Shown here: one piece after another, positions 3,485 through 59,977 of the stretch
Layout of the letters: each line of letters opens with the position of its first letter
How positions within the stretch are numbered: position 1 is the stretch's first letter
Source: Cavenderia fasciculata
Lineage: Eukaryota > Evosea > Eumycetozoa > Acytosteliales > Cavenderiaceae
Direction of reading: 5' to 3'
Assembly (NCBI RefSeq): GCF_000203815.1
Contig: NW_004457729.1
Location: 248,674-312,673 of the forward strand
Length of the DNA: 64,000 nt
Position numbers and translations under genes: made by a program
Notes under the pieces: model-generated
The model's database searches: none
Told to the model about the DNA's origin: nothing
What the model saw: the letters and a program-made list of their open reading frames with translations, nothing else

Positions 3485-5244
3485 TTTTTTTTTCTTCTCT
3501 CTCTCTTTCGTTAGTTTTCTCTCTCTGTTTTGTTTAAAAAATTATTAATATTATTATTCTTGTTGTTATGTTTTATATAAATATTATATATAAATGTGTA
3601 AAATTATTAATTTAGTATTGGTTGTTGATCTGTCTCGTGATGGTAGTACATTGAATGAAGTTTGTTAGTTTATTATTATTATAAATATGATTATTTGTAC
3701 AAGAAAAAAAGAAATAAAAATAATTATTGGTAGTGTGGATAATAATAATAATAATAATGACGATGATGAGATCGTAAGAAATGAATAAGGAATGAGGTTC
3801 TTTTCAATTCATTCATTGTGCTTTTGCCCCATTGTTTCTTAATTTTATCCTCTCTGTGACGATGAGGTGTGGATCGACGACAACCCAGCTCTACCCATCC
3901 TTCTTTCAAACCATGCAACTCGATACTTTTTTAGGACAAAGAGGAATTGAGGTTTTAATAATAACCAACTGCAACGGCAACGTCGAATCGATTTCTGCAT
4001 CCAAACAGTTTCTGCGGCTCATCTTCAGCACAGCCCCCACTGACAATCATAACAAAATCCTGTGGATATTTTTGTGGATATTAATAAAAACTATTTTTTG
4101 GCAGAGGATTAGATTATTTATTTTTGATCAAAGCTATCCAAGACTTGTGGGGCTAAATCGATAGTTAGCCCCATTGCATCTTTAAAAACAATAACTATCT
4201 TTTGTAAATAGCTGAATTGGGCAAAAAGAGGGAATCTGATTTTAGAAATTCAAGGCTTTCAGATTTAGATATTCTTTAATCATTGAAATTATTGTTATTA
4301 ATTGATAATATAATAGTCAATAATTTTGGTGAGGGTTTGTGATGCGATACAACTTTCATTATTTGTAACTATCCATCATTCATTAACCTTAAAGTTTAAT
4401 TATAGCTAAAACCTAACCATCTCCAAAAAAACGAACCGTTAGAGTATTTGTGTAGTGACCCTAACCCTAAATTAACAACCAACGCTTCAAATAACCTGCA
4501 ACTACTTTTTTTTATGAACGAAGGTATTCTCAACATTTTGTAACTTCATTATTTTAGAATCCTACTTGTTGTTGTTGTTGGTCTCTCTCCTTTTGATTTA
4601 GATCATACTATGGCGAGGGTATCTTATCTTATCTGTTGGTGGTCTCTGATAATACACGTAATATTGTTGTACACGTTTTATGTCTTTGATTGTTTGTTTA
4701 TGATTCATGATCTTCCATCATCGAGAATCAGACCTTTTTATTTTTTTTTTGAGCAAGGTCGGAGCCCAAAAAATATCTTGGGAAGAGTTCTTGGTGTCGA
4801 AGCATCTCATCATGTTACTTTCCTAATCAAAGGGAAACTTCTCTCATTCTTTGTAAACAGAGACATACCAACAGTTTCGTCTGACAGTCTTGTCTTTTCT
4901 CTTTGGTTTACAAGTTGTTCTGTTAATAATATCGATTCTTCTATCATATCTCTTGGACTGGTCACCATCACTATAGAGGATCGTTTAAGCTCTCTATAGA
5001 GATAAGATAATACATACAGACAAGAAGAGGCTTAAGCTTAGAACAACAGAAGCAGAAGCAGCAAAAGAGAGAGAGATAGATACTACTACATAATAATAAT
5101 GAAGAATTTAAACTAACTAGTAGATAGATATAAACAAAGTTATATATACATAATCAATTCATATTTTACAACCATACTTATTCCATATACATACATTCAT
5201 CCTACATATACATACATTCATCCTACATATACATATAATCTATA
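3485..5244. other. Intergenic region, no firm gene
   Basis: About 1.76 kb between divergent membrane-protein genes. Short open frames at 3913-4164 (+) and 4610-4999 (+) lack family support. A minus-strand stretch at about 5000-4862 reads like an exon: an acceptor-like CTATAG, an open frame containing MIEESILLTEQLVNQREK, then a GTATGT donor. No partner exons were found. Two CCCTAA units occur near 4460-4475. The rest is AT-rich and unassigned. Confidence 0.5.
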
Positions 5245-52629: not shown

Positions 52630-53043
52630 ATGGCCCGTACTAAACAAACCGCTCGTAAATCCACTGGTGCTAAAGTCCCACGTAAGCATCTTTCAAACAA
52701 GTCCGCCTCCAAGTATCCCTCCAACAACGCTGCCGGTCTCAAAAAGACCCATCGTTTCCGTCCAGGTACCGTCGCACTCCGTGAAATCCGTCGTTACCAA
52801 AAGACCACAGAGTTGCTCATCAAGAAGTTGCCCTTCCAACGTCTTGTAAGAGAGATTGCCCAAGAGTTCAAGACTGATCTTCGTTTCCAAGCCGCTGCCA
52901 TTCAAGCCCTCCAAGAAGCCTCTGAATCCTACCTTGTCGGTCTTTTCGAAGACACCAATTTATGTGCCATCCATGCCAAGCGTGTCACTATCATGGTCAA
53001 GGATGTCCAACTCGCCAAGAGAATCCGTGGTGAACGTTCTTAA
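52630..53043 (+). CDS. H3: Histone H3
   Basis: Intronless, 137 aa including Met. The start at 52630 gives [20 protein letters not shown]; the longer upstream frame is not H3-like. The fold region is typical: [57 protein letters not shown], ending RIRGERS. The N-terminal tail keeps Lys4, Lys9, Ser10, Lys14, Lys18, Lys23 and Lys27, but the residues around Lys27 are S-K-Y rather than R-K-S, and one residue is inserted between about 29 and 36, making the protein one residue longer than canonical H3. Single gene here, with a downstream stem-loop. Confidence 0.95.
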
Positions 53044-53312: not shown

Positions 53313-54230
53313 CTATTTATCTTGTCTTTGATTATTAGATTGAATTAAATTATTTATTATTTCTATAGCATGTGCACACTTTTCATCAACCATTGAACCA
53401 TTTGAGTGGATTAAAGTTAGGACTTGGTCGGTAGCATTATTGGTATCTAATTGGATTGGCTCTGATTTAGCGCCATACACCCATAGACCCAATACTATTT
53501 TACAACATGGGTATTGTACGCGTAGCTTATTGATATGATCAAGATGTTCATCAAATATGATTCTTGCACTGTTAAAACCAACCATATACAGACATACACC
53601 TTTGGTTATGGCATTGAGTGGATTGTTTGCAAGTTGTTCATGCTCCACAACATTAAAATCCAACAAATTAATGTTTGACTTGTTCAACATATACAAATGT
53701 ACTTTTGTCTTTAGATAATATTGTATTTTATCAATCGATCCTTTTTCAAAACCTTGACTAGGCCTTGATAATATAATTCTAATTGGTGAAAGATTTGTTG
53801 TTATATTATTATTAATAGGATTAGGATTATTATTATTGGTTGTTAGTGCTGATGAAGAGGATGAAGAGGATTTTTGGTATTTGTTTGGTGGAGCGGTCAT
53901 GGTAGAGTTGAAGAGATTACTCAAATAACCAAAAGTTGAAGTAGAGGGCTCTCCTCCTTTGGTATGTTGATTATTTTGTACTATAGGTGATGATGTTGGT
54001 GATGGTATAGTGCGTTCAAGTGTTTTAGTTCTTTCATTTAGTATTTTGTATTTATCACCCAAACAATACAAATTTGCTTGTTGCTCTTCTACAGTGTCTT
54101 TCAATGACTTGTTTTCTTGTTCTATAGTGCACATCCTCGTATGTATGTCGTCAATGAGTTTTCTTAATTCTTTATTCTCTTCTTCTACTCTTTCTAGCAG
54201 TGATGATGATGATGGTGATAGTGTATCCAT
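53313..54230 (-). CDS. Coiled-coil protein A, partner of IFI44-like gene (copy 1)
   Basis: Single exon of 305 aa. An N-terminal coiled coil (about residues 10-70, VEEENKELRKLIDDIHTRMC) is followed by a Ser/Asn/Pro linker. The C-terminal domain (about 155-295) has alternating strands and helices: GVCLYMVGFNSARIIFDEHL then CCKIVLGLWVYGAKSEP. Its paralog at 56943-57674 shares the order and the ARII-DEH core. The pattern faintly recalls the second half of a Ras-like domain, without G4 or P-loop residues. Divergent from the 54714 gene. Unknown function; plausibly a partner of the GTPase-like protein. Confidence 0.75.
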   Translation of the reverse strand: MDTLSPSSSSLLERVEEENKELRKLIDDIHTRMCTIEQENKSLKDTVEEQQANLYCLGDKYKILNERTKTLERTIPSPTSSPIVQNNQHTKGGEPSTSTFGYLSNLFNSTMTAPPNKYQKSSSSSSSALTTNNNNPNPINNNITTNLSPIRIILSRPSQGFEKGSIDKIQYYLKTKVHLYMLNKSNINLLDFNVVEHEQLANNPLNAITKGVCLYMVGFNSARIIFDEHLDHINKLRVQYPCCKIVLGLWVYGAKSEPIQLDTNNATDQVLTLIHSNGSMVDEKCAHAIEIINNLIQSNNQRQDK

Positions 54231-54713
54231 CTCTTTCTCTCTTTCTTTCTCTCTCTTTCTCTCTCTCTCTACTTGTCTCTTTTGTTATTATCTACTAATG
54301 AAGATTGATCAATAGGCAATGATGTACGAGGGTATGAATCATTCTTGAGATTCAAAGCTTTTGTTGGAATGGTTGGGTTGATCCAAATTTGATTATTAAA
54401 AATTTAATTCATTTTATTTTTCGCTGAACCCAAGAAGAAGTAAATAATCAAGTCATTACCAAAGGTTTGTGATGGTATCACTCGAAGGTAACAGAATGAA
54501 GAATCCCTAAAAATTTGATTCTCTCCCACATACACAAATTATATAGAGATCAACAGCACAACGATCGTTCATCATTCTTCATTCATCAAGTTCACCAAAC
54601 AAATAAGCATCTTTTTATTTGTTTGTTTCTGAATCTCAATACACATATCACATATCACACATCCTATATATACATACATATATATTTAAATTTAATCTAT
54701 AGTCATTAGAAAT
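54231..54713. promoter_or_regulatory. Divergent promoter of pair 1
   Basis: About 480 bp shared by the coiled-coil gene (-) and the IFI44-like gene (+). It includes a CTTTCTCTCT tract at 54236-54275 and TATATACATACATATA near 54665-54682. No specific factor site was assigned. Confidence 0.4.
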
Positions 54714-56862
54714 ATGTCACAACCAGTAGTTTGTCCTACACACATCACGACACAGTTCCCAAGTGTAATTGTGATATTGAATGAAAAGTCACTACTTTCA
54801 CAATCCGGTCCATACATTCAAAAGCTTGTAGAGAAATCTCCTTCATCACAAATGTTCTCTGTGTTTAGCTTTTCAGCCGAAGAGGTAAAACAGGTATTGG
54901 CCAGCGAACAAAACAAACAGTCTATTTTTAGCCTCTTGGTATGTCTCACCACCCCCCATCCTTTATCAAACATACATATATATCTGCTGTACATATATTA
55001 ATTTATTATTCTCTTCTCTTTTTCTTTTTCTCTTTCTCTATTTTAATATAGAACCAAAAGAGGATTCATTAAAAGTTGAAAAACCTGGTTACTTTCAATC
55101 TATGTATCGGTCGATTATGGGTATCTATCAATGGGGCAAGGATCCTTATTGCACTTCCTTGGCTAGAGCATTGGAGATTTGTGGTGATTCCATCCATACC
55201 AAACAATCAGACCAATGTGATCCAGTGATCATACTGTTTACCACCAATGTATCGATTCTTTTGAATGCCGCTGTCATCAACTCTATCCAAACCCTAATGG
55301 CAAAAGGAATTTCTCTCAACATTGTCAACATGCACCCCAAGGATAGTCTCATACCAAGTACAGAGGCTATTCTAGTCAAGCAATTCAACGAATTCTCATT
55401 CACCAAGTTAGAAATGGACTTGTTTCAAGACCACAACAATGCCAATAACAACAGAGAAGTATCAGTTGGTGTAACCCTTCCTATTGACACCGTCCCCCAG
55501 ACTCTTCAAGACGATGTCCGAATCGTGTTTAATCTTAGACCTCTCAAGTCGAAATTGGAACCAGGCTACACTATCCAAATAGCCAAGAACCATTTCTATG
55601 AAGGATTGGCTTACAAAATCGAAAAAGATGTCCCAATTGGCGAGGGAGAAGGATTCAAGATTCCATTGACCCTTCTCCGATCATTTGACAGAAGTGGTGG
55701 TGATAATGAAATGCCACCCCATGAAATCAAATTTAGTATTATTTCACCAGCACACATTGTTGTTTCTAGTGGCTATTTTGGTATTCCTACTGGTATGTAT
55801 TCATACATATTTATAAATTTATAAATATTTAAAATTTTATTATTAATATAATACCCAATCTCTAACTCTCATGTATAGTATTATTTGTAGGGGAATTTGG
55901 TATCACAAAAGATGGAGAGAATAAGGTTGATATAAAAGCTGCTCTCGATGGTGAACAAGGTGTTGGTAAGTCAGCGGCTACCAATCAAGTGGTAAACGTG
56001 TTTGTGACTGGACCAGTAGTTCATCCAGTTTTAACGTATGTTGTTAAATATATAAATATACATACTTTAAAAAGACATGTTATTAAAATTATTTATTATT
56101 TATTATTATATTTTTTAATTAGTTCAAACGCAACAGATTCACATACCACAAAATGCATTCAATTTTATAATATCAAAAGTTATCTTGCCCAATATTTAGA
56201 GGATAGTCCACATCGCGATCTAGACTTGTTCAAAATCATTAAAAAGTCATTGAATGTCTTGTTGGTCGACAAACAAGGTATTTCTCGATCAGCCACTAAA
56301 ATCAGTTATGCTAATCTATTGGCAGGAAAGTATATTCACGGAAGCAACGAGGAGAAGCCTGCCAATAGAGAATGTGCAGTCCATAGCATCGTGTATGTAG
56401 CCTCTATCAAATCATTTGTAAGTGGTAACTTTGAGGAAACCCTAGCAAGAATTAAGGAAATTAAGGAAGAAGGTATGTTATATAAAAGTGAATCAAATTT
56501 GTTTTCATTTATAAATTAAATTATATATTAATCATATTTATTTAATTATTTATTTATTTATTTATATTTTAGGTATTGAACCAATTATTGCTATCACCTT
56601 TTCAGATAAGCTGGAAAGATCGGAAATGGAAGGTCCAAAACAAAATATAGCCAAGCTGGGTCATGCCCCCAACATTATCTACCTCAAAAATTATGTCGAG
56701 GGTGCCACAGAGAGATCCATTGAAAAGGATTATGCCTCTTTCCGTTTGTTGTTGAGAATCAAGACTGTTACCATGAACAAATTACGTTTATTAAAGATGG
56801 ATGCCGAAACTAAACAAAATCAAGGCCCTAAACTCATAGATGGACTCACAAAAAGAGAATAA
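54714..56862 (+). CDS. IFI44-like P-loop GTPase with vWA-like N-terminus (copy 1)
   Basis: Exons about 54714-54938, 55063-55792, 55891-56035, 56123-56472 and 56573-56862, roughly 579 aa; the second acceptor is uncertain (55051 looks better as a site but gives a stop). The N-terminus has a vWA-like alternation (PSVIVILNEKSLL, then CDPVIILFTTNVSILLNAAV) without a clear MIDAS. Residues about 200-315 form a beta-rich middle. The C-terminal domain starts with a P-loop, DGEQGVGKS (about 339-346), followed by LLVDKQG (G3-like DxxG), the segment VYVASIKSFV, a degenerate G4 (ITFSDKLE), and NIIYLKNYVEGATE, which parallels IFI44's ILMVGNYASD. The inferred role is nucleotide-dependent signalling or defence, by analogy only. 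Confidence 0.8.
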
Positions 56863-56942
56863 AGTAAATAAATAAACACTTGTAATTGTAAATAAAATAA
56901 AAAAAACAAATAATAGTTATTGTCACTTTAAAAATATATTTA

Positions 56943-57674
56943 TTAATTGATTAAATGATTCTTTATGATATTAAAAGCAGATTGATTTTTATCAAGTGGA
57001 TAAACATTTGAGTTGGTTATATTTGTAGTACAAATATAAAAAAATGATAAACATCCATCAACTATACCATCAATGTTGGTTCCCACTGGAGTAGCATTTG
57101 AACCATAGATCGAAGCTCCAATGATGATTCTACAGTTAATAAACTCTTTTTTAATCTTTTCTAATTCTTGGCTATGTTCATCCATGATTATTCTTGCAGT
57201 TGAAATTGATACCAAGTAGATAACAACTCCCTTTAAATCTTTTTTTACATTGTGTTTATCACCATTATACACTTTGATATGATATTGATTTGCTTCACCA
57301 CCAAGAATATCTTTACTATATGTTTTGAGTAATCCTTTTATATTTTTAATTAAAAGGCCATTCTTTTCTTTAGTTCCTTCTTTTAAAATAATATTTAATA
57401 TTTTTTTAATTGGTACAGTTTTGTTTGAAAAGTTGGAAAATAATCCAACTATACCAGACTTGATCGATAATGGTTCTACATTGTCTTCTTTTATATGGTC
57501 ATCATTATCTTTTCCATCAGCATGCTCTTTTTCAATTTTTTCTATTTTCTTTGTTAATAGTTCTAATGCTGTTTGGTTGCTTTCATTTTGTTTTTTGATT
57601 GTTTCTTTCAAATCAGAAACTTCTTTTTTTAACTCGTTGATAATATCCAAAAAATTATGATTAATTGCATCCAT
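56943..57674 (-). CDS. Coiled-coil protein A', partner of IFI44-like gene (copy 2)
   Basis: Single exon of 243 aa. Coiled coil at about 5-50 (LKKEVSDLKETIKKQN, LLTKKIEKIEKEH). The C-terminal domain (about 85-240) shares GVVIYLVSISTARIIMDEH and CRIIIGASIYGSNATP with the 53313-54230 protein, in the same order. It lacks that gene's long Ser/Asn linker. The gene converges on the 54714 gene (80 bp apart) and is divergent from the 58159 gene. Likely a duplicated copy of the same module; function unknown. Confidence 0.75.
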   Translation of the reverse strand: MDAINHNFLDIINELKKEVSDLKETIKKQNESNQTALELLTKKIEKIEKEHADGKDNDDHIKEDNVEPLSIKSGIVGLFSNFSNKTVPIKKILNIILKEGTKEKNGLLIKNIKGLLKTYSKDILGGEANQYHIKVYNGDKHNVKKDLKGVVIYLVSISTARIIMDEHSQELEKIKKEFINCRIIIGASIYGSNATPVGTNIDGIVDGCLSFFYICTTNITNSNVYPLDKNQSAFNIIKNHLIN

Positions 57675-58158
57675 TGTACTGATACATTTAAAATGATTAT
57701 GAATTTGTTATTAATTTTGGTTGTTGGTTGTCTTGTTGTTGATGGTTTATTATTTTTAGGTTGGAATAATCACTGGAATTATCAAAAAATAATTTAATGA
57801 ATAAATATTTGAATGATTATTAACAAAGAGTCCCCTTTGAAGAATAGAATTGTTATTTTTATCATACGCCATTTGATTACCCTTTCCATCGAAAAGGGCC
57901 ATGAAATAAATAGAACCACCACTACTTGCAACAACACTGTTTTTAAACCACCAAAATGTTGACTCAAAAATTTAATAATAAAACAATTGGGGTTTATTAT
58001 TTTGAGAGTATTTGATATATCCAATAATAAATCAAGGATTATAAAAGTACAATTGATTGGTTTATATTTATTTATTAACCAATCATTCTTCTCAAATCAA
58101 AAATATTTTTTTCTTCTCTATCAAAAAATTAATTTTCCAAATTTTCATTCCAACAATC
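57675..58158. promoter_or_regulatory. Divergent promoter of pair 2
   Basis: About 480 bp between the two genes, similar in length to the spacer of pair 1. It contains A/T tracts (for example TTATTTATTAACC near 58068). Sharing of elements with the first spacer was not established by eye. Confidence 0.4.
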
Positions 58159-59977
58159 ATGGAACATTTTGAACCTATTCCACTTCAATTAATACCAACC
58201 AATTGTCAAACCATCTGTGATGATGACGATAAATCACCCAACCAAGTAATCATCCTACTTGATATTACAAATCAACAAAATTTAGCATCACAAATTGTCT
58301 TTGTACTTGATTTTATTAAATCTTCACCCAACCACGTTCATTTTGACCTCTTGGTTCATCAACACAAATCCCCTCCAAGAGAAATTTCATTAAATAGAAC
58401 CAAAAATGATATGGTATCTGATTTAAATAGTATTTATACCTTTAAATAATATTTTTGTTTTAGCAAATTTATTGATTGTTTAATTTTTAGAATTTAAAAA
58501 TGAATCAAATCATAATCAAACTATAGATATGGCCTCTTCTTTTAAATGTCTTTTTAAAAGTTTGGGAGATTCAGTGTCAGAATCATTGGACCAATGTTTA
58601 TTATCAATCAGACCCAAGTCGTCACAAAAGGGAGACCCAGTCATTGTATTGTTTTCATATGCTTTGCCACCTCGTCCAAATCAAAGACTACTCAAATCCA
58701 TTAGAAACATTCAATCACAGTCTGTACACTTACTTGCTGTGGTCCAGAATGGAATCATTAGCAATCAATTGGATAATTGTCCTATCTTTTATCCATTGAA
58801 AATGAATGACCTCTTGTCCACATTATTTAAACAACAAAACAGTGATTTCTCCATTGAGGTAATCTTGGACCAAGAGAGCAAGGCCCAAAAACTCAATGAA
58901 AACGTAGTTTTGAAAATGTCAATCAAACCAGAAAACAAACCACTTCCACCAAAATCATATCTTCAAATTGGAAGAAATGAATTTTATTATGGTGTCAACA
59001 TTTGTTTGGGTGAACAAGGAGTCCAACCAGATGAATCAAGAACTATCCCGTTTACTCTCAAACCAATTCAAAATACTTTTGCCACTCGTATGCCACCTAG
59101 TCGCATTCAGTTTAAAATTGTCCAAGACCCAACAAATGAAAAGGTCAAAGTTTTAACTCAGGGCTACTTTAGTATTCCAACCGCATTGTTTTCAGGAGAG
59201 TTTTTTGATTTCCAATTGGTTGTGGTGATTGATGGAAAAGCTGGGTCTGGTAAATCAACAGTTATCAATGGAATCTATAATACTTTTCATGATAGAGAAA
59301 TCAAATATCCATATTTTACATCAAATTGTGGTGCTGTACATGGAACTCATGCATTCAACTTTACTCCAATGTGTGATATCCTACAAAAAAACTCAAAACT
59401 CAATAGTCTCCTCATCAAAGATATCATTGACAACCTAAATGTCACTGTTGTAGATAAAAAGGGATACACCGAATCTGATACAACCCCAGTGATAAGTGGA
59501 TTATTAAATGGTCAGTTCCGTCACAATGAAACCAGACTCTATCAAGAAACCGATCCAAACTACAAGGTAAATGGATGTATTCTAGTAGCATCTATTAAAT
59601 CTTTTGTTTCTGAAACTTCTACAGATTTTACAATGATTAGAACAAAAGTTAGAGAACTTTTATCAAATAGTATGTAAATTTAAAAATATATATTTTTAAT
59701 TGTTTTTTTTTACTTACCATTTATTTTTTTTATTTATGTTTTTTTTGTAGAGATACATCCTATTTTAGCCATTACATTTCTTGATGAATTAAGTGAGAAT
59801 GAAATGACACTACCAAAAGCCAATATTGCTACGCTTGGAGTTGAAGTGGGAAATATTTTCTATATGGATAATTACCTTGGTCACACCAAGGAGAGAATGA
59901 TTGAAAAGGATTACCAAAACTTTGAATTATTACTTTGTGCCAGAAAACTTGCTGAAAATTATATTAATAATTTATAA
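58159..59977 (+). CDS. IFI44-like P-loop GTPase with vWA-like N-terminus (copy 2)
   Basis: Exons 58159-58429, 58491-59669 and 59751-59977, 558 aa. The start MEHFEPIPLQLIPTNC is chosen because the longer frame has no ATG support. A vWA-like half-domain (VIILLDITNQQ, QIVFVLDFIK) is split by the first intron. A beta-rich middle ends at GYFSIPT. The P-loop is VVVIDGKAGSGKST (339-346), with VVDKKG (G3-like), LLNGQF, VASIKSFVSETS, the degenerate G4 AITFLDEL and IFYMDNYLGHTKERM. Both copies place the P-loop at residues 339-346 and share the end YxxFxLLL. It has fewer introns than copy 1. Confidence 0.82.

Follow-up and report, generated by a model that had tools for sequence, protein, structure and literature searches.

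IFI44 is an interferon-induced human protein whose mechanism is unclear and whose putative TLDc domain is N-terminal. It has been counted among the TLDc proteins, its TLDc being putative and at 15% identity (PMC5614904). In the cpRAS-VWA proteins of Dictyostelium and other eukaryotes, a single polypeptide contains both a GTPase domain and a VWA/Sec23-24-trunk-like domain (PMC2430557). Bacteria have vWA- and GTPase-centred conflict systems, including a DO-GTPase with a GAP1 partner, and 38% of systems have two paralogous GTPases (PMC7159879). D. discoideum homologues of GBPs and of other restriction factors have been called likely immune in function (PMC5758549). We analysed a 64,000-nucleotide window from Cavenderia fasciculata (assembly GCF_000203815.1, contig NW_004457729.1, positions 248,674 to 312,673, forward strand) in which an initial annotation had read two adjacent gene pairs as a duplicated module of an IFI44-like GTPase and a coiled-coil partner. 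With a probability of little more than one half (about 0.53), we read them as a two-gene module of a dictyostelid-type amoeba, present in three head-to-head pairs, whose GTP-switch-like protein and coiled-coil protein would form a nucleotide-controlled complex.

The two pairs in the window comprise the following features (window coordinates):

53313..54230, minus strand: partner gene c1, a single open reading frame of 305 amino acids, paralogous to c2 and c3
54231..54713: gap of 483 bp between the start codons of c1 and A, a candidate bidirectional promoter on the basis of the head-to-head layout
54714..56862, plus strand: P-loop gene A, 583 amino acids as modelled, homologous to B and C; exons 54714-54938, 55063-55792 (or from 55052, with a frame problem), 55879-56035, 56123-56472 and 56573-56862
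56943..57674, minus strand: partner gene c2, a single open reading frame for a 243-amino-acid protein, paralogue of c1
57675..58158: gap of 484 bp between the start codons of c2 and B, a candidate bidirectional promoter
58159..59977, plus strand: P-loop gene B, 558 amino acids; exons 58159-58429, 58491-59669 and 59751-59977

Both pairs are thus divergent and lie where they had been annotated, the partner gene on the minus strand and the P-loop gene on the plus strand. Pairwise BLASTP, whose E values refer to a search of one sequence each, bore out the paralogy proposed for both genes. A and B share 164 of 570 columns (29%, E 7e-48) over nearly their full length; the A compared here was the version whose first junction contains one in-frame stop. 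The partners c1 and c2 match in a C-terminal stretch (21/66 identical, 32%, E 3e-14).

Single-protein searches of the genome (31.0 Mb, 21 contigs), whose counts are lower bounds, showed that the proposed duplication as a unit holds for these two pairs and had been understated. A third head-to-head pair, gene C on the minus strand and c3 on the plus strand, 314 bp apart, lies on the same contig about 400 kb from the window pairs, and a distant P-loop relative, D, lies on contig C21. All three intact partner genes found in this genome adjoin a P-loop gene, and three of the four P-loop genes found adjoin a partner gene: a two-gene module of a GTPase-type and a coiled-coil protein has been copied and kept as a unit. 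The P-loop proteins are 31.9% (A-B), 32.6% (A-C) and 35.7% (B-C) identical, with D at 20.8-24.9% to the others; the partner domains are 28.3% (c1-c2), 35.9% (c1-c3) and 30.4% (c2-c3) identical. The most divergent pairing is the same in the two families (A-B and c1-c2). Paralogous genes stand head-to-head in triplicate, and the P-loop proteins share a GTPase-type sequence profile. Because repeated duplication has preserved the head-to-head arrangement of these unlike genes in all three pairs, even as their proteins diverged to about 30% identity, we infer that the proteins of a pair probably work together.

What kind of protein is the P-loop partner? We read its domain order as vWA-like, Ig-like beta-sandwich and GTPase, laid out in B as follows:

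B residues about 1-200: vWA-like domain
B residues about 207-326: Ig-like beta-sandwich
B residues about 328-555: GTPase domain

The G1 motif GxxxxGK[ST] is present in all four proteins. The P-loop had been placed at residues 339-346, which is right for B (GKAGSGKS at 339); that of A is GEQGVGKS at 343-350 in the present gene model. The G3-like and NY segments annotated in both window genes are also there, the former as DKxG. Across the family, DxxG occurs in three of the four (DKQG at 420 in A, DKKG in B and C), D having DKWA. At the G4 position, where [NT]KxD would be expected, all four have T-[FT]-x-D and the lysine is gone (AITFSD at 494 in A). The motif order in A-D is G1-G3-G4. No Pfam family exceeded its own cut-off for A, B, C or D, but similarity to GTPases emerged from hhalign comparisons within the genome itself. 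The A-D domain scored 45.3 (E 2.1e-6) against 25 Ras-superfamily pieces and 39.6 (E 1.2e-5) against six MMR_HSR1 domains, and none of 200 column shuffles reached either score; the receiver-domain control scored 19.9, with 2/200 shuffles. These similarities support a predicted C-terminal GTPase domain of TRAFAC type that has lost the G4 lysine. A weak NCBIfam hit to the anti-phage nuclease Avs4 in B (residues 493-553; E 0.002, 15.3 bits, cut-off 1500) was taken as chance; the other sub-threshold NCBIfam matches in that scan of B and C fall on the P-loop. Separately, a number of Ras-family matches at C18:561-584 kb and C3:193-382 kb fall in open frames of about 335-455 amino acids and cover only the later part of the profile (from about position 58 on), without its P-loop part; these may be headless Ras-like proteins, or the first exon of the genes may lie apart.

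The vWA-like N-terminus of the earlier reading is recovered through the paralogue C alone. In scans of B and C, residues 17-160 of C matched NCBIfam TIGR03436 (E 2.9e-5, 23.7 bits, curated cut-off 81), and C matched Pfam VWA_2 at E 0.0067, likewise below its curated cut-off. A profile match is thus found in one of the four proteins; A, B and D gave no direct match and are counted by homology to C. The metal ion-dependent adhesion site (MIDAS) motif DxSxS is intact in none: C (DTSTT) and D (DNSCT) have near-MIDAS sequences, and A and B have lost the motif. The N-terminal domain is, as far as C indicates, vWA-like with a degenerate metal site, and the model of B suggests in part that the middle domain is an Ig/ear-like beta-sandwich. 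This combination of vWA-like, beta-sandwich and GTPase parts fits no Pfam family above cut-off, even if kinship with IFI44 is dropped.

The partner protein c1 consists of an N-terminal coiled coil (about residues 12-75), a low-complexity linker and a C-terminal domain (about 146-305) with an ARII-DEH core. That the minus-strand partners are coiled-coil proteins is clear for c1, whose signal was reached by 0/500 shuffles; it is weaker for c2 (25/500), and c3 is similarly moderate (28/500). The structure model of c1 is of low confidence (mean predicted local distance difference test score, pLDDT, 49). The C-terminal domain is probably alpha/beta and family-specific. Could it instead be a decayed Ras/Rho-type GTPase, the module then pairing a GTPase with a pseudo-GTPase? 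We consider this quite improbable, and the comparison with Ras did not support it: 24 of 300 shuffles scored as high against the Ras profile, and by eye c1-c3 have no GxxxxGK[ST].

For the proposed module of a GTP-switch-like and a coiled-coil protein, the simplest mechanism would be a nucleotide-controlled complex, a coiled-coil scaffold joined with a GTPase that has two binding domains. The two genes would be co-transcribed from a shared promoter of 0.3-0.5 kb. The coiled-coil protein would oligomerize to act as a scaffold or adaptor and would dock onto the GTPase protein through its C-terminal domain; nucleotide binding would control assembly or release, and the vWA-like and sandwich domains would bind a target.

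We considered further copies of either gene. The neighbour of D, c4, is an open frame on the plus strand (locus L023, about 3540-4345) that lies tail-to-tail with D, their stop codons overlapping. By eye it is like a partner, but we rejected it as a fourth one: 155 of 2000 c4 shuffles at least equalled its profile score of 1.3 bits, and a 160-residue piece of c4 used as a query matched itself alone. Among the partner copies found, just one stands alone, a broken c1-like fragment on contig C2 with 77% DNA identity to c1 over 375 bp and several stops. Its locus (L036, C2:1158558-1161938) contains:

1533-1880: the c1-like fragment
2364-2436: a tRNA-Ile gene

The fragment also lies beside a stretch that we read by eye as a reverse transcriptase of a long interspersed nuclear element (LINE). 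A weak match to D at C18:1760123 (E 0.0026) was rejected by eye, the open frame there reading as a protein of another kind that contains low-complexity stretches. A pattern scan of viral contigs and prokaryote genomes gave no relatives. Next to the module in the window lies an intronless histone H3-like gene (52630-53043, 137 amino acids).

The first intron of B, C and D is of phase 1 and occupies corresponding positions in these genes, which splice cleanly; A, B and C have in common a late intron ahead of a PI[IL]A[IV]T motif. The first junction of A (window 54714-55062) differs: joining donor 54939 to the acceptor ...ATATAG|AA throws the gene out of frame, an acceptor 11 nucleotides downstream of the expected one leaves the frame open, and no frame-keeping canonical splice pair was found there. 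The cause may be unusual splicing, a sequencing error or a frameshift. Between the start codons, the longest word shared by any two pairs is a 13-mer, TGACTCAAAAATT, found in the B/c2 (window 57960-57972) and C/c3 (locus L022, about 4030-4045) intergenic regions. It contains TGACTCA, which we take to be a bZIP-like core. A word as long was equalled in 23 of 300 simulated pairs; for the longest shared words of A-B and A-C the counts were 134/300 and 233/300.

Several of these observations weigh against a jointly working module. The two families are not cleanly in step, the closest P-loop pair being B-C and the closest partner pair c1-c3. D is without a demonstrable partner, c4 doing no better than its shuffles. 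The three intergenic regions of the A, B and C pairs share no significant word, so they lend co-regulation no support. Gene A may be frameshifted. The G4 lysine is absent in all four proteins and the G3 glycine in D, which may mean that GTP specificity or hydrolysis is gone. Finally, the model of B is of poor quality in its GTPase half, with pLDDT block means of 22-48. The missing promoter word and the unpartnered D would also fit a reading in which the genes were simply old tandem or segmental duplicates, neighbours by chance or through shared chromatin and without joint function; divergent neighbouring genes are, moreover, common in eukaryotic genomes. We nonetheless think that explanation rather unlikely, because adjacency and head-to-head order have been kept in three pairs at 28-36% identity, one of them some 400 kb away.

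A different question is whether the module is an amoebal offshoot of the IFI44 family, sharing ancestry with IFI44/IFI44L in its GTPase domain and serving as a cell-autonomous defence system. We regard this as a tentative alternative, less credible than the reading we favour. For comparison we used a fragment of the human IFI44L G domain, of unverified sequence, and ranked it among 2034 targets (32 GTPases of the C. fasciculata genome, 2000 shuffles and two versions of the fragment). With its P-loop, the fragment came first of the 2034 against the A-D profile (E 0.0028), mostly owing to its P-loop part, which is a lead and not a test; by eye, the P-loop, DxxG, T..D and an LG...NI...NY segment also follow in A-D in the same order as in IFI44L. 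The signal weakened when either side was trimmed. Without the P-loop, the fragment dropped to rank 5 against the A-D profile (E 0.45) and to rank 25 once D was removed from the profile (E 11), and the full fragment, still first with the profile minus D, fell to E 0.072. Used singly as a query against the genome, in an insensitive search, the fragment found nothing, and it matched no Pfam model or PDB chain by which its sequence could have been confirmed.

The N-terminal part departs from IFI44. The claim that the plus-strand genes follow the order of vertebrate IFI44 proteins was not supported, since IFI44 has a putative TLDc where A-D gave no TLDc match and have a vWA-like N-terminus instead. 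Pfam TLD was not matched in A and B at E up to 10 or in C and D at E up to 5, a search of limited sensitivity given that the TLDc of IFI44 is itself putative; the 21 TLD matches of this genome are located elsewhere. A-D may have an IFI44-like GTPase domain. If the GTPase half were IFI44-like, a tractable amoeba would offer a way to study IFI44 biochemistry alongside a partner that may have been lost or replaced in vertebrates. The boldest version, in which an ancient IFI44-type GTPase works outside animals with a coiled-coil partner bearing a decayed GTPase domain, the two forming an obligate machine and a diversifying cell-autonomous defence of amoebae that predates interferon, strikes us as very improbable.

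For the two-gene module that we favour, a role in defence or membrane work is a guess, the defence part drawn from the company that such GTPases keep (PMC5758549, PMC7159879). Set against the described systems, the module resembles each of them in part. Like IFI44 and IFI44L, its P-loop protein has a GTPase-like half with a similar motif order, judged by eye and on the unverified IFI44L fragment; in place of their putative TLDc (PMC5614904) it has vWA-like and beta-sandwich domains, and it has a coiled-coil gene partner. Below threshold, the GTPase domain has some of its best profile matches with septin, RsgA, IRG and GIMAP GTPases, but none exceeds its curated cut-off, and A-D have lost the G4 lysine. 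The bacterial conflict systems also set a TRAFAC GTPase gene beside a dedicated partner and have vWA components in sister systems (PMC7159879), but no sequence relation was found by the pattern scan of prokaryote genomes or by PADLOC, in which C and c1 (two of the eight proteins considered) hit no family at E up to 0.1. The cpRAS-VWA proteins likewise join a GTPase and a vWA-type domain in a single protein; theirs is circularly permuted (G3-G4-G5-G1-G2) and stands ahead of the VWA domain (PMC2430557), whereas here the motifs run G1-G3-G4 and the predicted GTPase domain is C-terminal.
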